Shown piece by piece: positions 4,744 through 20,579 of a stretch of 20,579 nt of DNA. The DNA is from a virus. Numbering within the stretch: the first letter of the stretch is position 1; the number at the start of each line of letters is the position of its first letter. The notes under the pieces were generated by a model, which had not been told where the DNA came from, did no database searches, and worked only from the letters and a program-made list of their open reading frames with translations. Location of the stretch: the IMG/VR virus record IMGVR_UViG_3300025649_000018, positions 1 through 20,579 of that record; one strand, 5' to 3'. A program made the position numbers and the translations under genes.

Positions 4744-5397
4744 ATGTCTGTTTGGACGATAGATCCTGTTTGGCTAGGTGGTGATGTGTTTATCATCGGC
4801 GGTGGCCATAGTTTGCAAAAGATGAAGTTTGATTGGTCGTTGTTACATGATGAACACACGATTGGATGTAATGATGCCTACAAATGGGGTGAGCGGGTTT
4901 GCAAACTATGTTTTTTTGGAGACATGACGTGGTATAAACACCACAGAGATAATTTGTCTCGATTCTCTAATCCAGTTTTTACCAACGTTACAGGACTTAA
5001 GAAGACTAAAGATTTGTGGTTGTGGTTTGTGAAGCGGTACGGTACGGGACTACATCCGGACGGTATTGGTTGGAATGGCAACACGGGTGCAGCTGCCATT
5101 AACCTAGCTATATTGTTGGGAGCCCAACGAATCTACTTATTGGGTTTTGATATGCAACGAATAGATGACAAATCTAATTGGCATGTTGATAACGTTAGAC
5201 CTGCGGCAACCGCACCCAAGATTTATGAAATGTTTGTTAGATGTTTCAAAAGGCTTGTGCACGATTGGAAAGCAAAGTTTTCTGATGTTGAAATCTACAA
5301 TGTTACAGATTGTAGTGCTTTGTCGTCTGATCTTATTCCTTGGCTGAATCCAACTGAGTTTTGGGCTGCGCGTACGTGTGAGAAAGGGATCGACTGA
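4744..5397 (+). CDS. DUF115/MptE-like Rossmann protein, putative transferase
   Basis: A 217-residue protein resembling the DUF115/MptE-like and Cst-type sialyltransferase-like Rossmann proteins. Seen: VFIIGGGHSL (15-24), a nucleotide-binding-type turn; HTIGCNDA (38-45); CFFGD (56-60); GNTGAAAINLA (112-122); RIYLLGFDM (129-137); and NWH (145-147). This order, G-G-G-x-S-L, then I-G-x-N-D-A, then a GN.G..A.NLA..LGA helix and L-L-G-F-D, is characteristic of the group. Such proteins bind nucleotide or nucleotide-sugar substrates; a glycosyl- or diphospho-transfer role is inference. No signal peptide or membrane segment is seen. It starts three bases after the preceding gene with only a weak binding site, and its stop overlaps the next start (TGATG), so it is translationally tied to the head operon. 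It might modify the capsid, the DNA or a host surface sugar. Confidence 0.65.
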   Translation: MSVWTIDPVWLGGDVFIIGGGHSLQKMKFDWSLLHDEHTIGCNDAYKWGERVCKLCFFGDMTWYKHHRDNLSRFSNPVFTNVTGLKKTKDLWLWFVKRYGTGLHPDGIGWNGNTGAAAINLAILLGAQRIYLLGFDMQRIDDKSNWHVDNVRPAATAPKIYEMFVRCFKRLVHDWKAKFSDVEIYNVTDCSALSSDLIPWLNPTEFWAARTCEKGID

Positions 5398-7635: not shown

Positions 7636-10230
7636 ATGCCTATCTTCGCTCCATCCAAATTGGTTCTCCCCGGCACTGATGGTCTCGTCGGCCTGTGGGA
7701 CCCGTCTATCCAGGGAGCGGGCGGAACAAAGCTTGTCGATCTGAGCGGGTATAATTCGCATGGAACGTTTGGCACGTCTTCGCATGTGTCATGGCAAACA
7801 TCTTCAATAGGCACCGTTCTTGACTTCGATGGTTCCTCAGTCGGCGTTAGCGGTGTCCCCAAGAATCTCACAGGATATCCGTTCTCAGTTTCATTGTGGA
7901 TGCTCTCTACTGCAACGACGTGGTCAACTTTGTTCTGGATGGGGGATGGCACTAGGACTGACAAGATGTTCGTTGTATGGTTTCGGAATGTCTCCGGCCA
8001 TATAACGATTTCCGCCAGAAATGCAAGTGAGAAGTACACTGCTTCCACCAACGCATTCAACGATGGGAACTGGCATCACGTCGTGGCCGTGTTTGCTACG
8101 GCGACTGATAGGCGTCTTTACGTGGACGGCAATTTAGAGGCGTCCAATGCGTCTTCAGTCCCGTTCATTACATCGATGAACAAGTGGACGCTTGGCCTTG
8201 CCGGTGACTCGTCCCCCGGTGCTGCATACGAAGGGCACTTGGATTCTGTCTCGCTCTATAATTGCGAGCTTAGCCCTTCTGTAATCCGTAGTTTCTACCG
8301 CGATTCCCGCCAGATGTTCCGCCGCGAGCCCATCGAGTTCTGGGGGGCGTTGGTCGGCAGTGGTGGGACATCCCAGGCTTTAGCGGGAGTAATTGCAGCT
8401 CAAGCGGCTGTGACTGGTTCTATGTCTCTTGCGGCATCGTTAGCGGGGTCTACAGCAGCCGTATCCACTGTCTCAGCTGCGATCTCGGTCGGTATGGGTA
8501 TATCTGGCCTTATTACGGGTACAACGGCTCTAACAGGCCGTGTGGCGGTTGTACGGGGTATCAGTGGAGCTATCGCGGCGGTTACAACCGTTTCGGGCGG
8601 TTTAACCGTTGCTCGAAACATACAAGGAGCAATAGCAAGTCAATCGGTCGTCAGTGGTTCACTTTCAACAGATAAAAAGTTGGCAGGATTAACGACAGTT
8701 CAATCTGTCGTAAGTGGTTCGCTTTCAACAGATAAAAAGTTGGCAGGATTAACGACAGTTCAATCGGTCGTCAGTGGTTCACTTTCAACAGATAAAAAGT
8801 TGGCAGGATTAACGACAGTTCAATCTGTCGTAAGTGGTTCGCTTTCAACAGATAAAAAGTTGGCAGGATTAACGACAGTTCAATCGGTCGTCAGTGGTTC
8901 ACTTTCAACAGATAAAAAGTTGGCAGGATTAACGACAGTTCAATCTGTCGTAAGTGGTTCGCTTTCAACAGATAAAAAGTTGGCAGGATTAACGACAGTT
9001 CAATCAGTTGTTAGTGGTTCACTTTCAGTCGGTAAGAAGTTAGCAGGAGCAGTAACAGCCCAATCTGTCGTAAGTGGTTCACTTTCGGTTGAAGGTGCTG
9101 TTGATTTACAGGGTATTATCGCGGCACAATCGGTTGTTGTTGGCGCTCTTTCAGTCGGTAAGAAGTTAGTTGGATCATCATCAGTCCAATCAGTTGTTAC
9201 AGGTTCACTTTCAGTTAGTAAGAAAGTACAAGGAGCAATAACAAGTCAATCGGTTGTTGTGGGTGGTTTAGCAGTCACCCGAAATGTGCAAGGTGTAGTA
9301 GCATCGCAATCGGCTGTTGTAGGTTCACTTTCAGTCGGTAAGAAGTTGGTTGGCGTAGTAGCATCGCAATCAGTTGTTTCAGGTGCTCTTACTATTAAAG
9401 GTTCTGTCGAACTACAAGGAGCAATAACAAGTCAATCGGTTGTTGTTGGCGCTCTTTCAGTCGGTAGGAAGTTAGCAGGATCAACGGCGGCGCAATCAGT
9501 CGTTACGGGCACGCTTACAGTTGAAGAAATACTCGTTACTTTACAAGGTTCCATAGCAGCCCAATCAGCCGTTACCTGTTCCATTTCGATTGTACGGGAA
9601 GTACAAGGTACAGTAGTAGCACAATCAGTTGTTACAGGCACGCTTAGCAGAGTAGTGAGTTTAAAGGGGAGTTTGGCTGCTACATCGTCCCTATCTGCTA
9701 ACCTATCAACGTTACTGATAGAATTGGTAGGATCGATAGCGGCCCAATCGACTGTAACCGGTGCATTGGGTGTTGAATCTGCCCCAGTCATATCTGCGGG
9801 CACCCTTCCACAATCAACTATTCTTGCTGCCTATTTGAAAGCCCAAGATTTATTTTCCGATCCTTCTGAAGATGATGATTGGCCTGTTTTCACTCGCAGA
9901 TTTCCCGAAGCAAGCGACGTCGCCAACAATCTTGGATGTCTCTATGATACCACAAGCATTGTGGATGGGAAGGGTATGGGGGGGACAGAGAATGAGCGGC
10001 ACGGAATACAATTCAGAATAAGGGGCGTGGGTTATAGCACTACCAGTTCCAAATTAGCGTTAACATTGGATAATTTGAAAACCGTAGCAGGGGAAAATGT
10101 AACGGTAGAAAGTAGGGTGTTCAAAATACACAACATTCAACGCACAACAACGATTCATCATTTGACACGGGATAAAAAACGTAGGGATCATTTTGTAACT
10201 AATCTGTTACTGGCGTATTCAGAACTTTAA
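7636..10230 (+). CDS. LamG-like lectin, 20-residue repeat array and tail-terminator-like domain in one protein
   Basis: An 864-residue protein with three parts. Residues ~10-235 are a LamG/concanavalin-A-like domain: GLVGLWDPS, LVDLSGYNSHGTF, VLDFDGSS, FSVSLWM, DGNWHHVVAVF, RRLYVDGNLE and a closing LDSVSLYN, so glycan binding is plausible. Residues ~249-716 hold 23 repeats of about 20 residues with consensus GxIAAQSVVxGSLSVxKKL, alternating hydrophobic and small residues, probably a solenoid or fibre. Residues ~725-864 resemble a tail-terminator/minor capsid domain (YL...LF, DWPVFTRRFPEA, GKGMGGTENERHGIQ, a late HNIQR) and align with the free-standing protein at 11101-11547. There is no good binding site at ATG 7636; translation may be coupled to the stop five bases upstream. 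It would display a host- or particle-binding fibre from the tail top or neck. The fusion is unusual; a sequencing frame error is unlikely because the frame is open for 2.6 kb. Confidence 0.8.
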   Translation: MPIFAPSKLVLPGTDGLVGLWDPSIQGAGGTKLVDLSGYNSHGTFGTSSHVSWQTSSIGTVLDFDGSSVGVSGVPKNLTGYPFSVSLWMLSTATTWSTLFWMGDGTRTDKMFVVWFRNVSGHITISARNASEKYTASTNAFNDGNWHHVVAVFATATDRRLYVDGNLEASNASSVPFITSMNKWTLGLAGDSSPGAAYEGHLDSVSLYNCELSPSVIRSFYRDSRQMFRREPIEFWGALVGSGGTSQALAGVIAAQAAVTGSMSLAASLAGSTAAVSTVSAAISVGMGISGLITGTTALTGRVAVVRGISGAIAAVTTVSGGLTVARNIQGAIASQSVVSGSLSTDKKLAGLTTVQSVVSGSLSTDKKLAGLTTVQSVVSGSLSTDKKLAGLTTVQSVVSGSLSTDKKLAGLTTVQSVVSGSLSTDKKLAGLTTVQSVVSGSLSTDKKLAGLTTVQSVVSGSLSVGKKLAGAVTAQSVVSGSLSVEGAVDLQGIIAAQSVVVGALSVGKKLVGSSSVQSVVTGSLSVSKKVQGAITSQSVVVGGLAVTRNVQGVVASQSAVVGSLSVGKKLVGVVASQSVVSGALTIKGSVELQGAITSQSVVVGALSVGRKLAGSTAAQSVVTGTLTVEEILVTLQGSIAAQSAVTCSISIVREVQGTVVAQSVVTGTLSRVVSLKGSLAATSSLSANLSTLLIELVGSIAAQSTVTGALGVESAPVISAGTLPQSTILAAYLKAQDLFSDPSEDDDWPVFTRRFPEASDVANNLGCLYDTTSIVDGKGMGGTENERHGIQFRIRGVGYSTTSSKLALTLDNLKTVAGENVTVESRVFKIHNIQRTTTIHHLTRDKKRRDHFVTNLLLAYSEL
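8380..9783 (+). repeat. 23-unit array of degenerate ~60-bp (20-residue) repeats
   Basis: Inside the 864-residue protein. I count 23 units of 20-23 codons from LAGVIAAQAAVTG (8380) to the GALGVESA end. The conserved core is QSVVxGSLS with a leucine or valine opening each unit. Units 1-4 and 12-23 are diverged; units 5-11 are nearly identical. Units 12, 17, 19 and 22 carry one to three extra residues before the next unit. Confidence 0.85.
8641..9000 (+). repeat. Perfect 120-bp tandem repeat, three copies (six 60-bp units A-B-A-B-A-B)
   Basis: Six 60-bp units alternate strictly between two versions. They differ at only three bases (first seen at 8646 g versus 8706 t, 8652 c versus 8712 a, 8661 a versus 8721 g), all synonymous. 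The real DNA unit is therefore 120 bp in three exact copies, while the protein unit is 20 identical residues. This is what duplication of an A-B dimer would leave. Confidence 0.95.
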
Positions 10231-11117: not shown

Positions 11118-11547
11118 TACAGTAGGATCGGCAGCAGATGTTTTGGCTGAGTATTTGACAACTACACTGGAGCTTTTTACAAAGCCTGCGGTGAGTGATA
11201 CTTGGCCTCTGTTTACAGGCAATTTGCCAGATCATAATAGTGTTGAGGATTCTGCTGCAGCCGTTCATGATGTCAGCGGCGATTACCAAGGCAAGAACAT
11301 GAATGGTGAGGAACATCAACGCTATTGTGTTTTGGTGTGCGTTAGAGCCGCGTCTTATAGGGTTGCTTGGACTAAGTTGTCTGCAACAATTAAAACTTTG
11401 ATTGCTCTTAGCAATCGGTATGCGACTGTTGACGAAAGGGTTTACACAATTTTGAATATCAGCAGAGAAAGTGGAATAGTGACCGAAAGTGTGGACTCCA
11501 AACAAAGGAACATTCTATCGGTAAAGTTGTTGGCTTCACTAAAATAA
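11101..11547 (+). CDS. Tail-terminator-like/minor capsid-type protein
   Basis: A 148-residue protein. ATG 11101 is the first start giving a compact product and overlaps the previous gene by 17 bases; an in-frame ATG at 11032 would overlap it far more. The binding site is weak, so coupling is likely. The sequence matches the last ~140 residues of the protein encoded at 7636-10230: YL....ELF, DTWPLFTGNLPDH, D.SG...GKNMNGEEHQR, V.VRAASY..A..KL, YTILNISRES, and a final K.R pattern. This resembles tail terminator / minor capsid proteins that cap the tail tube. Its place between tube and chaperone genes differs from the usual place before the tube gene, which is held by the fusion protein. Which copy is the working terminator is not known. 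Confidence 0.6.
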   Translation: MLPLIDTVGSAADVLAEYLTTTLELFTKPAVSDTWPLFTGNLPDHNSVEDSAAAVHDVSGDYQGKNMNGEEHQRYCVLVCVRAASYRVAWTKLSATIKTLIALSNRYATVDERVYTILNISRESGIVTESVDSKQRNILSVKLLASLK

Positions 11548-11579
11548 TAGCACACGCGAAAAATGGAAAGGTTTGTCAG

Positions 11580-11948
11580 ATGGGAGATCCAATCAAACTC
11601 AGTTTGAAACTGGAAGAGCAGCCTGTTATTCTCACAGATACGACAGGTCAGGAAGCAACCTACAGCTTGCGAGAAATGTCCGGGGATGACCTGGAAGGAT
11701 ATCTCGAATCCAATCGAGAAAGATTGGATGTTGAGGTAGATGAGACAGGCAAGGTGAAGGTAAAGACTATCAAGAGTTATAAAGGCATGTACAGTTCTTT
11801 GCTGTCTTTCTGTTTGCATAAAGCGAACGGGGAGAAAGTTACAGTAGATGAGATTGGCAAATTCCCTCACAAGGTTCAAAAGGAATTGTTTGGAAGCGCA
11901 CAAAAACTCAACAAGCTTGATGAGAAAGATGAGACTGAGGGAAACTGA
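11580..11948 (+). CDS. Tail assembly chaperone, short form (gpG-like)
   Basis: A 122-residue protein starting at ATG 11580 behind GGAAAGG (11565-11571). It is acidic and helical, with REMSGDDLEGYLESNRERLD (about 36-55) and a C-terminal EKDETEGN. It sits between tail protein genes and the tape measure gene, the fixed position of lambda G and its analogues. These proteins coat and keep the tape measure soluble before tube assembly and do not remain in the virion. The stop at 11946-11948 directly follows a slippery heptamer, so a fraction of ribosomes should continue into the next frame. The identification rests on place, size and the frameshift signal; the sequence itself is fast-evolving. Confidence 0.85.
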   Translation: MGDPIKLSLKLEEQPVILTDTTGQEATYSLREMSGDDLEGYLESNRERLDVEVDETGKVKVKTIKSYKGMYSSLLSFCLHKANGEKVTVDEIGKFPHKVQKELFGSAQKLNKLDEKDETEGN

Positions 11949-12328
11949 CGATTCGGGAGCGTAGTTGGTACCGACTCGCTACCCGATTACATATGTCCAA
12001 ACAAAGGTGCCAACAAGAAACAACAGCTACAGAGTTTTACAAATGGCGAATCATTTTTAAGGAAGAGGACGAACGCATAGAAGCAACAACGTGCAGGGAG
12101 CATGTACAAGAGAGGTATTTAGCACAGATTGCTATGTATATCGTTAAAACGCATACAAACGATCCAAGCCAGATTAAGCTGGAATCTTTTTTGATTCGTG
12201 GAAAGAAAAAACCCAAGAGTATTACACCTGAAGAAAAGGCGAAAAGCGTTAGTAGGGTTAAAGCATATTGGCGTCAATTTATTTTGGCTTCCAGTAGTGT
12301 GAAACGAAAACCTAAAAAGAGGACCTAG
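11580..12328 (+). CDS. Tail assembly chaperone, -1 frameshift product (gpGT-like)
   Basis: A -1 shift on GGGAAAC at 11939-11945 joins the 122-residue short form to a downstream frame that has no other good start. The shifted frame reads from CTG at 11945 to the TAG at 12326-12328 and adds 127 residues, for 249 in all. The frame is closed just upstream of the slip (TGA at 11936-11938), so entry only works at this point. The added part begins LTIRERSWYRLATRLHMSK, then ATEFYKWRIIF, like the F..W...  motif of gpT. An ATG at 11993 could start a separate 111-residue protein, but it has no binding site. In lambda-like phages both forms are needed, in a fixed ratio, to build the tail with the tape measure protein encoded next. 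Confidence 0.85.
11939..11986 (+). promoter_or_regulatory. Programmed -1 ribosomal frameshift signal
   Basis: GGGAAAC at 11939-11945 reads G GGA AAC in the gpG frame, the X XXY YYZ form, immediately followed by the TGA stop. After a seven-base gap comes a hairpin of about 14 base pairs: 11953-11961 pairs with 11977-11986 with one bulged A (11981), and 11963-11967 pairs with 11972-11976 around the loop GTAC. Slippery site, spacing and stem all match the standard design. Confidence 0.88.
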
Positions 12329-12329
12329 C

Positions 12330-15158
12330 ATGTTTAGTTTGGACTTAGGCAATTTGCTTGTACATCTGAAGCTCGAGAGTGACCAGTGGACTAGGGTTAT
12401 GCGAAATGTAGAAACTCGCATGACTCGGGCTGAGAACAGGCTGAATTCTTTCGGTCGTAATATGACCATGAAAGTTACAGTTCCACTTTTGGCTTTAGGT
12501 GTGGCTTCTATTAAGACATTTGCTTCGTTCGATGATGCGATGGTACGATCTACTGCTATCATGGGTAACGTGACTGATGATATGGATGCAGACATGCGAT
12601 CGTTGGCCCGAACGTTATCTATGGAAGGTGTACAGTCAGCTACGCAATTGGCTGAATCGTATTTCTTCTTAGCTAGTGCTGGTTTGGATGTGAAGCAATC
12701 TATAGCAGCGCTTCCTGTTGTACAGAAGTTTGCAACTGCGGGCGCTTTTGAAATGGCGTTGGCAACAGATTTGGTTACGGATGCCCAATCTGCTTTGGGT
12801 TTGACCGTAAACGATTCTCAGCAGAATATGACGAACATGGTGAAAATCACTGACATTTTAACGGGTGCGAATACTCTTGCTAACGCCAGCACCCAACAAT
12901 TCTCAGAAGCACTGATGCGCGCTGGTCCTGCGATGAAGGCATACGGAATAGAATTGGAGGATGGTGTAGCAACGTTAGCAGCGTATGCAGATCAAGGAAA
13001 AAAGGGCGCTGAAGGTGGTGAATTGTTTGGACGAATGTTGAGATTGATGATCAAAGGTTTCAATGACAACAGGGAGGCGTGGGATAGATATAACATATCT
13101 ATTGTGGATGCTCAAGATAACCTACGACCGATGGCTGATATCGTTCGGGATTTGACAGGTGTTTTAGGTACGATGGGTGTGACGGAAAAAGCTGCGGCAC
13201 TTGAATTGCTCGGTTTTCAAGCTCGAAGTCAGCAAGCCGTAATGCCATTACTTGGATTGGGGAATGCGATAGAGCAATACAATAAAGACCTGCATCAAAT
13301 GGCTGGGATTACGGAAGAGGTCGCCAACAAGCAGTTAAAATCACTCGGCAGCCAGTTGCGGATTATTTGGATTCATGTTAAGGCTGTTGCCGCTTCTTTC
13401 GGAAGCACTTTAGAACCTATGGTTTTAAAAGTGGGGGAGGGTGTAAAAACATTTGCGAAATTCTGGTTGAATCTGAATAAAGAGACTCAACGGACTGTCG
13501 GTATTGTTGCCGTTCTCGCAGCATCACTAGGCCCTATCGCATTGGCTATGGCGTTAATCGTAAAGGTTGGGGCATTAGTGGTGGGTGTTTTTGCAGCGAT
13601 GAATGTAGCAGCGTTGGGGTGGGTGGGTACTGCTGTGTTGGTAGCAGGTATCGCATATACATTACGCGCAGCTTGGGAGCAGAATCTAAGCGTCATTAAG
13701 GATCGCATGGAGGAATGGCTGTTGGCGTTTCAAACAGGTTTGGAATGGCTGTGGGATTCTCCAATTGGCGGTTTTCTCAAGTATTTTGTTGCAGGTTTTA
13801 CAGATGCCTATACTACAATCAGAGATGGTTGGGCTGATACGATAGTAGATATTGCGGCCATGGCTATGGGTGCAGGATCGTTTTTGCGTGAGCTAAAAGA
13901 TGCTATTTCAGATGCATGGGTGGCACCTGATATTTCTACGATGGTAACGCGATTCGAGAGTGGGTTGCGCAAAGCAAAAACAGAATGGGCTTCTGCGTTC
14001 GAGCATACGTTTGATGCGCTTAAACCTTCAGCAGATGATGCTGCTTTATATGTTCATAAAAAGTTTACAAGTATTCCATTAGTCATAGAGGCTTTTGGTG
14101 CGGCTTCTGTAGAGCATCTTGGTGATTTACTATCTGCTGTTAAGGTTCAGTTTGGGCAGGATTTTGAGGGTATTGTTGATCTTGTAAAACAAGCAATGCC
14201 AGATTTAACTTCTGCTATTGATGAAGCTATGCGGTCGATGGGGGGTGTGTCAATAGGTCCTGTTGTACAACCCATTGAAAGCGATTGGAAGTGGGCTGGC
14301 GTCTACCCTCAAATGCAAGCTGCGTCTAAAGATATGATAGATGCCATGTCAGAGGAGTCTATATGGGCTGCGTGGGATCGTATGTATGATGGATTGAATG
14401 ATAAGTCGGCTGAATATTTCAACTTCCAACAGAAGAAATTGGAAAAGGAAGTGGAATTGTGGCAGAAGAATGCATCTGTCATAGCTAAACAATTTGATAT
14501 GGAAAAGGATGCGGTATTGAATCTGATTGATGTATACGAAAAAGAGCAAAGGGTTTTGATTGAGATTGCAGAGTTAAAACAGGGTGGATGGGCAGATGGA
14601 TTAAAAGCATTCGCGATGGAGTCTACACGGACGTTCAAAACGGCGGGTGAGAAGGCATTCGAGTTCGCTCAATCAATGGAGCGATCGGTATCAAATGGTT
14701 TGCAAGGTATGTCCCGTGATATGGATAATTGGGGAGCACATGCTCTGCGGATTTTGGAAGATATTTATTTTGAAGCCATTAGGATAGCATTCATCCAGCC
14801 AGTCGCAAGTGGATTAGCTTCATCTTTTGCCGGAGCGTTTGCCCAACCTTCGGGTGCTGTTTCAAGTGGGCAAGGACCTTCGCTACCCCACTATGCTGAA
14901 GGCGGTATTGCCTGGAAGCCACAAATTGCTAGTCTAGCTGAAAACGAACCGGAACTTATCACACCGTTTTCCGAATTGAGAAAGATGCAAGATACTTCTA
15001 AGGCTAGTGGTTTTTCCCTGCATATTGAAAACATTACCAACATGCCGATAGAAGCGGAGGATATCGATTTCGATCCAGATCGTATGATAGCTAATATCAC
15101 CATTAGAGATAAACGAAATAGAGGTCCTGTCAGTAGAGCCAGTAGAAGTCGAGGATAA
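12330..15158 (+). CDS. Tape measure protein
   Basis: A 942-residue protein starting at ATG 12330, one base after the gpGT stop, with AAGAGGA upstream. The N-terminal third has the TP901-type tape measure core: VTVPLLALGVASIKTFASFD (about 49-68), then AMVRSTAIMG, QLAESYFFLASAGLD, QFSEALMRAGPAMKAYG and ELFGRMLRLMIKGF. Hydrophobic segments lie at about 389-449 (GIVAVLAASLGPIALAMA and ALVVGVFAAMNVAALGWVGT), the kind of region thought to enter the host membrane when DNA is injected. A long helical part follows, with a coiled stretch near 690-760. The C-terminus carries HYAEGGIAWKP and ENEPELITP, common in this family. Its length sets the tail length; using roughly 1.5 angstroms per residue, tail length would be about 140 nm, an estimate only. 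Confidence 0.92.
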   Translation: MFSLDLGNLLVHLKLESDQWTRVMRNVETRMTRAENRLNSFGRNMTMKVTVPLLALGVASIKTFASFDDAMVRSTAIMGNVTDDMDADMRSLARTLSMEGVQSATQLAESYFFLASAGLDVKQSIAALPVVQKFATAGAFEMALATDLVTDAQSALGLTVNDSQQNMTNMVKITDILTGANTLANASTQQFSEALMRAGPAMKAYGIELEDGVATLAAYADQGKKGAEGGELFGRMLRLMIKGFNDNREAWDRYNISIVDAQDNLRPMADIVRDLTGVLGTMGVTEKAAALELLGFQARSQQAVMPLLGLGNAIEQYNKDLHQMAGITEEVANKQLKSLGSQLRIIWIHVKAVAASFGSTLEPMVLKVGEGVKTFAKFWLNLNKETQRTVGIVAVLAASLGPIALAMALIVKVGALVVGVFAAMNVAALGWVGTAVLVAGIAYTLRAAWEQNLSVIKDRMEEWLLAFQTGLEWLWDSPIGGFLKYFVAGFTDAYTTIRDGWADTIVDIAAMAMGAGSFLRELKDAISDAWVAPDISTMVTRFESGLRKAKTEWASAFEHTFDALKPSADDAALYVHKKFTSIPLVIEAFGAASVEHLGDLLSAVKVQFGQDFEGIVDLVKQAMPDLTSAIDEAMRSMGGVSIGPVVQPIESDWKWAGVYPQMQAASKDMIDAMSEESIWAAWDRMYDGLNDKSAEYFNFQQKKLEKEVELWQKNASVIAKQFDMEKDAVLNLIDVYEKEQRVLIEIAELKQGGWADGLKAFAMESTRTFKTAGEKAFEFAQSMERSVSNGLQGMSRDMDNWGAHALRILEDIYFEAIRIAFIQPVASGLASSFAGAFAQPSGAVSSGQGPSLPHYAEGGIAWKPQIASLAENEPELITPFSELRKMQDTSKASGFSLHIENITNMPIEAEDIDFDPDRMIANITIRDKRNRGPVSRASRSRG

Positions 15159-15548: not shown

Positions 15549-16160
15549 ATGTCTGTAAGCATGCCATCTAATATCACTAAGATTAAGAATGATTTGAATC
15601 AACCTGGAGCTTGGCCTTGGTTGATTGTTCTTACCACTCCTGATTCAACTATCCTTCGTTACGCTGGCAATACGGAGGATGTTTCTTATGATGGGGATAC
15701 GTATACAGCCTTGAATTTCAGTATTGATCAATTTTCTTTTAATACAGAAGGTGAGATTCCGGAAATCACGGCTTCGATTTCAAATATAGGTTATGCATTA
15801 CAATCATATATTCAAGACGGCGTGATCGGCGGTACTGTCAGTTTTCTTCAGGTCAATACGGATTACTTGGCTGAGGATTATTCTGAAGACCTATTGACGT
15901 TTACAATTTCTGGAGTGGAGGTCACATGGACGATTGTAAACTTTACCTTATCTATATCTCCGGAACTTCGATTCCGTACTCCTGAGGATCGATTCAATCC
16001 GTATACTTGTCGTCACAAGTTTAAAGGTGGACGATGTGGATATACAGGCGTTTTGACTTATTGTGATCGCAACCCAGATTCTTGCTCTGAGCGTGGCCGT
16101 TTCCCAGGTAGTTATGGTGGTCCTTTGTCCATGAGACGTGAAGCTGTGAGGTATGCATAA
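15549..16160 (+). CDS. Minor tail protein, lambda L-like with cysteine quartet
   Basis: A 203-residue protein starting at ATG 15549 behind GGGGA. The N-terminal 150 residues are a beta-rich tail domain: ILRYAGNTEDVSYDGDTYTA, EIPEITASISNIG, LTFTISGVEVTWTIVNFTLS. The C-terminal part holds cysteines 154, 163, 172 and 179, spaced C-x8-C-x8-C-x6-C around KFKGGRCGYTG. In lambda gpL and its relatives four C-terminal cysteines bind an iron-sulfur cluster; the same outer spacings here suggest the cluster is kept. It would close the tail tube and hold the J-like part. The stop overlaps the next start by one base (TAATG). Confidence 0.85.
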   Translation: MSVSMPSNITKIKNDLNQPGAWPWLIVLTTPDSTILRYAGNTEDVSYDGDTYTALNFSIDQFSFNTEGEIPEITASISNIGYALQSYIQDGVIGGTVSFLQVNTDYLAEDYSEDLLTFTISGVEVTWTIVNFTLSISPELRFRTPEDRFNPYTCRHKFKGGRCGYTGVLTYCDRNPDSCSERGRFPGSYGGPLSMRREAVRYA

Positions 16161-19100
16161 TGGTACGATTCACTCAACAAGAGTTGAATGAGATAATGGC
16201 TGAGTTTCTTGGCAAGCCGTATGAAGCAAAGGCTACAGGACCCGATAGCTATGATTGTTATGGATTGGTAAAAGTCTTTGCGGAACGGTTGGGTATGGAT
16301 CTACCTGATATCGGTTTGGTTGATCCCAAGGATGCGCGTCCTGTTTATGATCAACAGCAGCAGAATTACGAACAGTGTTTGTTCCCACGTCCATTTTCCC
16401 TTGTTACGTTTTCATCTAAGACTCTTTTGGATACTCATATCGGTTTGGTCCTCCCGAATGATAATCTATTTATCCATTGTCCAGGCAGGGCTCATGGAAA
16501 GGTTCTCGCGGAACCTTTGAGTCGTCGGCCTTGGCGGGATAAAGTTGATGGTTATTGGTGGGCGAAAGATTGGATTGAAGTAGTCATTATGCTCACACCC
16601 ATGACGACTTCTAAACGAGCTACACAGTTTGTCCGGGCAGGACGTTCGCTTGCGGAAATAATTGAACAGGATATAACTCGTGGACAGGATATACCACTCC
16701 ACGTTTTTTTGGATGCTGAACCCATTCTAAGGGCCGATTGGGCGGGGACCTACCCTACGTACGCCCAACAGATAGTTATCCGCCCCGAGCTGGCGAGAGG
16801 GGCCAAGCCTGTACAACTGATGGGTATGTTAGCCCTTGCTGTAGCTGCTCCGGCTATAATGGGGGCTGTCGCTCCTGGTTTGACTGGCGCTGCGAGTGCA
16901 ATGATGGCTGGGGAAGCTGCATATAGTGCTGGTACTATGATGGCCTATTCATTAGGCACTGCTGCAATTATGATGGGTGGGGCATTAGCCCTGAATGCGT
17001 TGGTGGGTGCGGATGAGGGTAAAGAAACAGAATCACAATCATATACCTGGAATCCCAAGACAACGCAACGAGTAGGTACACCTGTTCCTTTGGTGTATGG
17101 GACGTATGGCGTTCGAGGTGTTTTGATATGTAGCTACGCCTCAAGCAAATTAACGGAAGGGACAGACTTTCTCACAAAGGATGCATCAGTCACTTCTGCG
17201 GAAGACCTTATCCATCTAAAGATTGCGTATTCAGACGGTCCAATTGAAGGTATCGTGGATGGCACGGAAGAACTTAATAACAGGTCCATTGAATCTTATA
17301 ATGATGCAGATGATTGGGTGTTGGAGCATTTCACAGGAACAGAATCTCAGGCGGCTTCTACGGTAACAGATGCTTTCGAGATTCCAGTAAATCAAATGTG
17401 TAAAGACCAAAATCAGGATGATCATGAAATCACTAAGACTTTTACAGCAGTTGATTGCGATAAGGTTGCTATCGTTTTACGTTTCCCAAATGGTTTGACA
17501 AATTTCGATGCAGAGGGAGATGCAAATACTACCCGGATCGACACGAAAATTGAAATGCGTATTGCTGGAGGTTCTTGGCATACGTTGTTTGATTCACAAA
17601 TTATAGGTAAGAGCCGTGATCCGGTTCGTCTTAGATATTTTTGTCATGAGACATACGAGGGAGGCAGTGCTTTTACTATCACCCCAGGAATAGAATATGA
17701 AGCGCGGGTTTCGCGTAATAGCAGCCAACATTCAGATAGGGGTGATAATTTTTACTTCGATTCCATTCAATGTGTATTCGATACAGCTCAAAAACATCCA
17801 GGACTTGCTTACACAGCGATTGGGGCTGGGGCGGGGCAGGAGTTATCGGGTAGTATTGATTACTATGCACAGATAGAAGGGAAGCTCGTTTGTATTTATG
17901 ATTCTGGTGGGAATGTTACAAGTATCGAATGGTCAGATAATCCAGCATGGATTGCAGTAGATGTAGCCACACGTCCTGTTATTTCTGGTACAGGTGAGAG
18001 TGGTGATGCTTATGCGGTAGAGTATTATCGTCGGATGGACCCCAGTGACATTACGATGTCTGAATTTATCACTTTTGCGACATGGTGTGATGAGCAGGTT
18101 CCAATAACAGATGAGAGTGGTGATACTGAGAATCGATATGTGTTTAACGGTGTGATCGATTCTGAAATGGTAACGTGGGACGCCGTCCAACGGGTATGTA
18201 GAGCTGGATGTGCTATGCCGACGTTGACGGGAAATATTCTTGGTGTGGTAGTAGACAAACCTGCTACTCCATCCCAGATGTTCAATGTTTCAAATTTGCG
18301 TCCTGGTTTCCGCGTTACCTATCTGCCAACGAATGAAGTAGCTACAATCTATGATGCTGAATTTTATGATGAGACTGGGGACTATGCCAGAGAGAGTTAC
18401 CCCATTCCATTAAGAGGGGCAGCAGCGGATATTCCAGCGAATTTAGATTGTTGGGGAGCTACAAAACGTTCGCAAGTTTGGCGTAGAGCTACAAGGCAAC
18501 TTCGTATAAATCAGTACATGAAAAAGATGGTGGAGTTGCCTGCTGCCATTGATTCGATTTACACATCGTTAGGGGATGTTATATATGTCCAGCACCCGGC
18601 GATTGCTACTGGTGAAGGCGGTCGAATTGATACAGTATATGCCAATGGTATCAAAACGGATAAGGAATTGGATGTTGAGAGTGGTGAAACCTATACGTTG
18701 TTGATTCGTACACATGATGGTTCTGCTGAAAGGCTTAGTTATTATACTGTTGCTTCAGTAACGGGTGATAAGAATGATATAGTAACGATTGTCGGCGCGT
18801 GGGATTACACACCGAATGAAATGGATTTGTGGACGTTTGGAACTGCCACTGATGTTGTTGATACTTATAGGGTAACTGGTTTCCGGCGTCAGCGTTCTGG
18901 TAAAGTCATCCTTCAAGGAATGCAGTATACAACGGATTACTATACTGATGATGAAAACGCTCCTCGGATAGAGCCCCAAGTTTATTCTACAACGAAAGGG
19001 GGGACATCACCCTCCCTACTTCCTACAACTCAGCAAGCTGTAGCTGGACAAAAGCCGGGGGTGAGTCATATAGAGGAGTCCATCAAGTGGTATGGTTTGA

Positions 19101-20579
19101 ATTTTACTGGTGATGATGTTGATACCGTGACATGGACAGTCGATTTGGGCGGGGGGATCAAATACCAAGGCACTTGGGTTCCCATAGCGGATTCACAGTT
19201 TGGGGAGACGACAGATAAGTACATTTATTTTGATCCTAACATAGGCGATCCAAGATATCTTCAAACAACAAATGAGCTTTCTGATTTGTCCGGTGAAGCT
19301 CGTTATTTGTTCTGCATCAATGAGGGCGGCGTGGCGTTCTTTAAAGAGGGTGTTCTTGTTGCTAAGAATGGATCGTACATCGACGCCGACGATATGCCGA
19401 TTAGTGGCTCCGGCGCGAATCTCTTCGACGAGACTTTTGAGGATGCGTTCGGTCAAGTGACGTCTCACTGGGAACTGTATTCCAGCCATTCGATGACGTA
19501 CGCGGTGGCGTCGGCCAGCGGGGTTGCTGGCGGGAAGGTTTTGCAGTGTAGTGAGAATGTCGGGGCGATCTGGCACAAGCAGAGCATTCCGTTTGATCCG
19601 TCAAAACTCTATCGAGTTCGGATTCGGGCGAAGCGAACGGCGGGCATCTGTTCGCTTTATGCAGGGGTCGCCGGTCGCAATTCAGCCGATACGGCTTGGG
19701 TGGACTATACCGGGGCGGCGACGGCAAGGATGTGGGGCCAGCATTACGTGGTAGCGGTCGCTGAGTCGGGCGACGGCGCGTGGGAAATCTTCACGGGGTA
19801 TTTCAAGGGGCACGCAATTGGCAATGGGACGAACGTGGAATGCCCTGACCCGGCCAATCCTGGTGCGCTGCACGAAGACGTGCGGTATTTCCGGCCCTTC
19901 TTGTACATCAGTCAGAGCTCCGGTGAGTCGTGGGAGATTGACGAGTTCGCTATCGACGTCATCCCCGAGGACGCCGACCAAATCCCCGAGGGCGGCACCA
20001 ATAAATTTGCCGCTGAGTCGGGCGCCGACGTAACTGCGAACAATGCGGTAGATATTACGCACGTTGGCGTCGCGGCTCCTGGTTCACCTCAGGAAGGCTG
20101 GGTATGGTGTGACACGAGTGTTTCGCCCAATATGCTCAAGCGATATAGTGGCGCTGCTTGGATACAAATTGCAACGGTCGATGGGTCTTGGTCGCTTATC
20201 GTCGATGACGACGGGCACAAGCCCGAGGACGGTGCTGACGTAACTGCGAACAATGCGGTAGATATTACGCACGTTGGCGTCGCGGCTCCTGGTTCACCTC
20301 AGGAAGGCTGGGTATGGTGTGACACGAGTGTTTCGCCCAATATGCTCAAGCGATATAGTGGCGCTGCTTGGATACAAATTGCAACGGTCGATGGGTCTTG
20401 GTCGCTTATCGTCGATGACGACGGGCACAAGCCCGAGGACGGTGCTGACGTAACTGGCGACCACGAAGGCGATATCCAGTTAGACAATTGCGTCGAAGGC
20501 GTCAAGGGCGCCAAAACGTTCCATGACTACTTTCAAAATCCAGACAACGACGTCGCGACACGGTGGGTCAACCAGAGCG
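16160..20579 (+). CDS. Giant tail-tip protein: NlpC/P60 (K-like), I-like and J-like regions in one frame (partial)
   Basis: ATG 16160 opens a frame that I read through to the window end with no stop: more than 1473 codons. Residues ~8-140 are an NlpC/P60 cysteine peptidase: YDCYGL with Cys33, THIGLVL with His93, and FIHC with His106 as candidate catalytic residues; it would cut the cell wall on entry. Residues ~144-216 resemble the small I-like domain (VRAGRSLAEII, a late IVIRPEL). Residues ~217-284 are hydrophobic and Ala/Gly-rich, then YTWNP....RVGTPVPLVYG at ~295-314 opens the J-like hub. Residues ~1084-1270 look like a jelly-roll/carbohydrate-binding domain (SKLYRVRIRAKR, RYFRPFLYI, EIDEFAIDV). 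From 1290 come two identical 70-residue repeats. In lambda K, I and J are separate genes. An in-frame ATG at 16589 might make a J-only form, but has no clear binding site. Confidence 0.88.
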   Translation, partial: MVRFTQQELNEIMAEFLGKPYEAKATGPDSYDCYGLVKVFAERLGMDLPDIGLVDPKDARPVYDQQQQNYEQCLFPRPFSLVTFSSKTLLDTHIGLVLPNDNLFIHCPGRAHGKVLAEPLSRRPWRDKVDGYWWAKDWIEVVIMLTPMTTSKRATQFVRAGRSLAEIIEQDITRGQDIPLHVFLDAEPILRADWAGTYPTYAQQIVIRPELARGAKPVQLMGMLALAVAAPAIMGAVAPGLTGAASAMMAGEAAYSAGTMMAYSLGTAAIMMGGALALNALVGADEGKETESQSYTWNPKTTQRVGTPVPLVYGTYGVRGVLICSYASSKLTEGTDFLTKDASVTSAEDLIHLKIAYSDGPIEGIVDGTEELNNRSIESYNDADDWVLEHFTGTESQAASTVTDAFEIPVNQMCKDQNQDDHEITKTFTAVDCDKVAIVLRFPNGLTNFDAEGDANTTRIDTKIEMRIAGGSWHTLFDSQIIGKSRDPVRLRYFCHETYEGGSAFTITPGIEYEARVSRNSSQHSDRGDNFYFDSIQCVFDTAQKHPGLAYTAIGAGAGQELSGSIDYYAQIEGKLVCIYDSGGNVTSIEWSDNPAWIAVDVATRPVISGTGESGDAYAVEYYRRMDPSDITMSEFITFATWCDEQVPITDESGDTENRYVFNGVIDSEMVTWDAVQRVCRAGCAMPTLTGNILGVVVDKPATPSQMFNVSNLRPGFRVTYLPTNEVATIYDAEFYDETGDYARESYPIPLRGAAADIPANLDCWGATKRSQVWRRATRQLRINQYMKKMVELPAAIDSIYTSLGDVIYVQHPAIATGEGGRIDTVYANGIKTDKELDVESGETYTLLIRTHDGSAERLSYYTVASVTGDKNDIVTIVGAWDYTPNEMDLWTFGTATDVVDTYRVTGFRRQRSGKVILQGMQYTTDYYTDDENAPRIEPQVYSTTKGGTSPSLLPTTQQAVAGQKPGVSHIEESIKWYGLNFTGDDVDTVTWTVDLGGGIKYQGTWVPIADSQFGETTDKYIYFDPNIGDPRYLQTTNELSDLSGEARYLFCINEGGVAFFKEGVLVAKNGSYIDADDMPISGSGANLFDETFEDAFGQVTSHWELYSSHSMTYAVASASGVAGGKVLQCSENVGAIWHKQSIPFDPSKLYRVRIRAKRTAGICSLYAGVAGRNSADTAWVDYTGAATARMWGQHYVVAVAESGDGAWEIFTGYFKGHAIGNGTNVECPDPANPGALHEDVRYFRPFLYISQSSGESWEIDEFAIDVIPEDADQIPEGGTNKFAAESGADVTANNAVDITHVGVAAPGSPQEGWVWCDTSVSPNMLKRYSGAAWIQIATVDGSWSLIVDDDGHKPEDGADVTANNAVDITHVGVAAPGSPQEGWVWCDTSVSPNMLKRYSGAAWIQIATVDGSWSLIVDDDGHKPEDGADVTGDHEGDIQLDNCVEGVKGAKTFHDYFQNPDNDVATRWVNQS
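20027..20456 (+). repeat. Perfect 210-bp direct repeat in the tail-tip gene
   Basis: Bases 20027-20246 are identical to 20237-20456, a period of 210 bp (70 codons, in frame). Two full units are present; a third begins at 20447 with the same ten bases and then diverges. Each protein unit runs from DVTANNAVDITHVGV through EGWVWCDTS and LKRYSGAAW to HKPEDGA. The identity includes all silent positions. Confidence 0.95.

Follow-up and report, generated by a model that had tools for sequence, protein, structure and literature searches.

The G and T genes of bacteriophage lambda are the model for tail assembly chaperones made by −1 frameshifting; Levin in 1993 and Xu in 2004 reportedly described the lambda G/GT frameshift and its homologues in tailed phages. 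Lambda slips on the heptamer GGGAAAG, and in the G/GT class an RNA structure downstream of the heptamer is frequent and not obligatory, with a fusion protein that is made in a fixed low ratio and is needed for tail assembly. The lambda mechanism is outlined in a review (PMC5009743). Here we analyze IMG/VR virus record IMGVR_UViG_3300025649_000018, positions 1–20,579 (the whole 20,579-nucleotide stretch is termed the window below). As in lambda, a short chaperone gene with a heptamer near its 3′ end is followed by a T extension in the −1 frame and then by the tape measure gene; unlike in lambda, the heptamer ends in C and directly abuts the stop codon. As judged from the sequence, the window belongs to a long-tailed phage that very probably uses a −1 programmed ribosomal frameshift to produce its two tail assembly chaperones, G and G-T. 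The basis for this reading is the architecture of the site, its conservation, the covariation of a downstream stem, and the homology of the products; from these we infer slippage itself, its rate, and its role in assembly.

The putative gpG-like chaperone is encoded by a 0-frame open reading frame (ORF) of 122 residues (11580–11948, + strand, as for all cassette features below) whose start is preceded by GGAAAGG. The heptamer GGGAAAC occupies 11939–11945 in the phase G GGA AAC, the 0-frame stop TGA abuts it at 11946–11948, and a second TGA at 11936–11938 closes the −1 frame just 5′ of the heptamer. From that TGA the −1 frame is open to 12328, and the T-like extension (11945–12328), recognized from its ORF, homology, and relatives, comprises 127 codons after the slip and a stop. 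Because the −1 frame is closed at 11936–11938 and the 0 frame ends at 11946–11948, a −1 slip is confined to the ten bases 11939–11948, and we judge that the extension is read only as part of the G-T fusion. Splicing the two frames computationally at the heptamer gives a predicted product of 249 residues. A predicted stimulatory hairpin of 14 pairs (11953–11986) follows the heptamer after a seven-base spacer, TGACGAT. These positions agree with the first-pass annotation of this DNA, which had described GGGAAAC in X XXY YYZ phase with TGA directly 3′, a hairpin of about 14 pairs seven bases downstream, a −1 frame closed one base before the heptamer so that fusion could occur only there, and a fusion of 249 residues.

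In the proposed mechanism, most ribosomes would end at TGA 11946–11948 and release the 122-residue G-like protein. The hairpin would hold up a minority, in which the Gly and Asn tRNAs on GGA AAC could slip one base back and re-pair on GGG AAA; the slipped ribosomes would continue to 12328 and complete the G-T fusion. If the two parts work as their lambda counterparts do, G would bind the tape measure protein and T would bring in the major tail protein.

Relatives were collected by protein-pattern searches of viral contigs and genomes, which yielded 47 viral loci and one locus from a bacterial metagenome-assembled genome (MAG). The search patterns are located downstream of the slip site, so the presence of the heptamer in the relatives was not forced by the search. 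Two loci, L012 and L013, share contigs with L001 and L002 and were omitted from the heptamer count; the cassettes of L001 and L002 are identical to that of the window in the alignment. An in-phase GGGAAAC or AAAAAAC is present in 46 of the 46 relatives examined, which is the conservation that the first-pass annotation had proposed seeking by alignment. At 97% identity over 110 bases, the 46 rows reduce to 32 non-redundant ones, in which L011, whose cassette is identical, stands in for the window. These carry AAAAAAC (21 rows) or GGGAAAC (11 rows), and the heptamer starts 24 to 39 bases before a conserved Trp codon. Elsewhere in these frames, downstream of the slip site, only 26 of 3715 in-phase positions carry such a heptamer; set against this background, its presence in all 46 relatives is not a product of chance. 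The terminal protein branches are long (median of 0.52 changes per column), and the conservation is therefore deep.

The second codon of the heptamer is AAC in all 32 non-redundant rows. Its C opens the −1-frame codon, which specifies Arg in 21 rows and Leu in 11. A C is expected at about 53% from synonymous usage in the same loci, and the naive p of 1e-10 for 32 of 32 is overstated, as the rows are related. AAC seems to be favored over AAA and AAT; a preference over AAG is not readable from the synonymous test because a G would change the −1-frame residue. In a MAG linked to the family, for which 30 of 43 tRNA matches were read, tRNA-Lys with TTT and with CTT anticodons are both present, and to judge from this one genome a dedicated CUU tRNA could render AAG a poor codon for slippage. 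The −1-frame codon after Lys is CGA in 14 of the 21 Arg rows, compared with 208 CGA among 944 CGN codons in the loci, and in these 14 rows the 0-frame codon before the stop is Asp or Glu.

The 0-frame stop follows the heptamer directly in nine of the 32 rows and after one codon in 18; in the remaining five it lies 6, 10, 11, 11, and 34 codons away. By comparison, the mean heptamer-to-stop distance in the training set of phage frameshifts used for PRFect is given as 26 bases (PMC10274946). A stop within one codon is found in 27 of 32 rows versus 19.0 expected by synonymous recoding (0 of 2000 recodings as high, relatedness uncorrected). Since the rows are related and the stop-distance classes cluster on a tree of limited resolution (good support for 8 of 29 inner branches), selection on the close stop placement is taken as suggestive. 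A stop directly after the slip site allows a release factor to compete with slippage, as discussed in PMC4373837. According to earlier work recounted there, slippage on the slippery sequence of human immunodeficiency virus type 1 (HIV-1) in bacteria was lowered when the next codon was a stop and abolished by extra release factor 2 (RF2). These HIV-1 data make it reasonable to suppose, by analogy and as the first-pass annotation had proposed, that the abutting stop may tune the chaperone ratio. A more elaborate proposal, which we consider unlikely, is that the frameshift is gated by release factor, with termination and slippage competing in the paused ribosome at a stop zero or one codon away, and that AAC is fixed because AAG is unslippery in hosts with a tRNA-Lys(CUU). 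If true, the chaperone ratio would report the release-factor and tRNA state of the host.

The hairpin was examined by folding, synonymous recoding, and covariation. It consists of nine plus five pairs, separated in each arm by a single bulged base, and has an energy of −18.9 kcal/mol when folded alone. The 55 bases 3′ of the heptamer fold with z = −3.34 (0 of 200 shuffles as good) and 65 bases with z = −2.23 (computed on the identical relative L011); for a 121-base stretch z is −1.41, with 20 of 200 shuffles as good, and the hairpin region is not outstanding there. The relatives were further compared with synonymous recodings in which the −1-frame protein was held fixed and codons were drawn from each locus's own usage over the 54 bases from heptamer base 7. 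The mean z is −2.33 and 22 of 32 rows fall below −1. For controls taken 60, 120, and 180 bases downstream, the mean is −0.37 and 26 of 96 stretches are below −1; a Mann-Whitney test that counts the rows as independent gives p 3e-7. Across the relatives, synonymous recoding does not account for the strength of the hairpin, which is under selection beyond coding and is kept within a coding frame through synonymous choice.

Covariation was scored over a 13-pair stem in a gapless alignment anchored on the conserved Trp codon. The 32 rows score 0.327; shuffles average 0.222, none of 500 being as high, and the best slid register gives 0.196. The pairs of the stem covary, which bears on the compensatory changes for which the first-pass annotation had suggested looking. 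The score of a 22-row subgroup is reached in 1 of 500 shuffles. In the window's own group, which comprises six distinct rows and in which the stem is partly shifted by one base, two pairs carry changes in both partners, and 5 of 500 shuffles attain the score. In L005 and L014, which are one contig, the two substitutions within the hairpin affect both of the bases left as bulges when the window is folded.

The protein families and gene order point in the same direction. The 122-residue protein matches PHROG 344, a tail assembly chaperone family (E value 3.2e-4), and has no Pfam match at E 0.1. Family scans of relatives covered five loci (L033, L049, L050, L053, and L058), and the G parts of all five also match PHROG 344, with E values from 1.9e-6 to 0.044. 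Their −1-frame parts all match PHROG 337, a tail protein family (best E 1e-16), and PF06223 Phage_tail_T is matched above the cut-off in L033 (E 3.7e-10) and L053 (E 4.6e-7) and below it in L049, L050, and L058. The predicted T homology of the window's extension comes by way of these relatives, not through a match of its own. Directly downstream lies the putative tape measure gene (12330–15158, + strand; PHROG 1533, E 1.4e-59; PF10145, E 4.9e-27). A tblastn search of 50,697 GenBank phage records with the window's G and T parts found nothing at E 1; of three window proteins run against these records, the tape measure protein alone was matched, always at <60% identity. The first-pass reading of a tail-chaperone −1 frameshift fits these families and the gene order, as well as the conservation of heptamer and phase, the selection on the hairpin, and the covariation. 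In L014 (2585–3004 of the contig shared with L005, a 75%-identical relative), the G part is 18 residues longer and carries a CPKCG knuckle just upstream of the slip site; the knuckle is missing from the window and from L004, and the L014 cassette after it is nearly unchanged.

Several observations weigh against the reading as a G/GT-type frameshift with a conserved hairpin. The fold z is above −1 in 10 of 32 relatives (L018, L019, L020, L026, L027, L028, L035, L044, L045, and L058) and positive in three of these. The number of pairs changed on both sides, nine in the 32 rows, is equaled in 74 of 500 shuffles, and the number of pair types is not above shuffles in the 22-row subgroup (235 of 500 as high) or in the window's group (478 of 500 as high). 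The G parts of three of the five scanned relatives match PHROG 344 only at E 0.03–0.05, and the T-like part of the window matches neither PHROG 337 nor PF06223 nor any tail family, its sole match being PHROG 24020, of unknown function (E 0.0063). In Escherichia coli, moreover, A_AAA_AAC is stated to be less shift-prone than A_AAA_AAG (PMC5009743). The first-pass annotation had named one case against its own reading: relatives without heptamer and stem in which each frame is retained with a start of its own. None of the relatives examined is of this kind; 0 of 46 are without the heptamer, and the stem is not clear in 10 of 32.

The two frames might instead be two genes, with the −1 frame started at its own ATG (11993–11995, + strand), perhaps by re-initiation after the stop at 11946–11948. 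The first-pass annotation had held that the downstream frame has no credible start, which is correct in part: this ATG does open a 111-residue ORF in the right frame, yet it is not preceded by a Shine-Dalgarno-like sequence, unlike the starts at 11580 and 12330, and the comparative data are contrary. Among 32 relatives, the matching codon is ATG in 17, TTG in one, and none of ATG, GTG, or TTG in 14; some such codon occurs within the first ~22 codons of the frame in 29 of 32, and none does in L043, L045, and L046. The ATG also lies inside the conserved domain, and a start there would drop W9, A13, and L16, which are invariant in 11 aligned sequences (the window and 10 relatives). As independent initiation would in addition leave the in-phase heptamer in 46 of 46 unexplained, we judge that ATG 11993 is not a real start and give separate genes a very small chance. 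A sequencing or assembly error that splits one real gene would likewise leave neighboring frames whose joined product is homologous throughout; the arrangement recurs, however, in separate contigs with protein identities of 100%, 80%, and 75% as well as in distant relatives, and the chance of such an error is close to nil.

Other explanations concern the RNA structure. A stable G+C-rich stem beside a stop codon could be a transcription terminator or a processing site unrelated to slippage. No terminator-like site was found at 11540–12400, the window has no Rfam match at gathering score, and the stem is embedded in a conserved coding frame and keeps a nearly constant distance from the heptamer in relatives, so that this explanation deserves scarcely any weight. 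The same frameshift could also be stimulated by an H-type pseudoknot, in which GUUGGUACC (11964–11972, in the upper hairpin) pairs with GGUGCCAAC (12006–12014). The pairing is nine continuous pairs in the window's group (duplex energy −16.3 kcal/mol); compared with synonymous recoding, its z is between −1.7 and −2.2 in L011, L014, and L015, and L027 has a strong pairing with z −2.85. Over the 32 relatives, in contrast, the mean z in this test is −0.22; both pairing strands lie within conserved codons (W and RCQ), and the pairing competes with the upper stem. A pseudoknot across the family is not supported, and we regard this variant as decidedly improbable.

Elsewhere in the window, a 217-residue ORF among the head genes (4744–5397) has no Pfam match at E 0.01; by eye, we take it to resemble transferases of pterin or sugar type. 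An 864-residue ORF (7636–10230) contains a Laminin_G_3 domain (E 7.4e-20) and, after it, a series of 20-residue repeats that resemble one another, and a DNA repeat array lies within it at 8640–9086 (period 60, 7.4 copies, 90% matches). Downstream of the tape measure gene, a stop-to-stop scan finds one frame open for 1479 codons (16142–20578) that runs off the end of the record. Searched in two pieces, it gives an NlpC/P60 match near its start that is below the cut-off (E 0.0042) and Phage-tail_3 further on (E 1.5e-8), and it could be a tail tip protein that carries a fused peptidase-like domain. An alternative genetic code or decayed genes had been considered for 16160–20579, where the ORF list holds no long ORF; one frame is open throughout and nothing looks broken. 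An exact two-copy direct repeat of 210 bases in this open frame (20027–20456) is either a real duplication or an assembly artifact. Among the relatives, L058 lies, with L089, L090, L092, and L093, in a 171-kb contig of a Planctomycetaceae MAG that also carries phage head genes, an intein domain, an integrase, and a cyclophilin gene ~1 kb beyond the integrase, which suggests a large prophage. For the host of the window, this MAG offers nothing firm.

The frameshift site is an instance of a known mechanism of tailed phages, and its less ordinary features are the constant AAC and the close stop. The special status that the first-pass annotation implied for the window's slip site does not hold, as GGGAAAC directly before TGA had already been predicted for gp18/gp19 of Burkholderia phage KL1, which are also tail chaperones of the G-T type; as described there, KL1 differs by one additional tail gene that precedes the tape measure gene (PMC3483164). 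Both heptamers of the window's family are likewise reported from different phages, AAAAAAC in the Caulobacter phiCbK-like phages and GGGAAAC in Colossus (PMC3556154). The haloarchaeal viruses HCTV-1, HCTV-2, and HCTV-5, also among the nearest comparable systems, differ in having archaeal hosts (PMC5009743). A stop as the codon after the slip site is noted for Rous sarcoma virus and barley yellow dwarf virus (PMC4373837), which are eukaryotic viruses with unrelated genes. Apart from the AAC codon and the close stop, the finding confirms existing knowledge; it adds a diverse phage family, seen almost solely in metagenome contigs, in which the frameshift can be traced from sequence alone. Together, the constant AAC and the close stop offer a handle on the influence of the tRNA set and the release factor in natural phage frameshifting.
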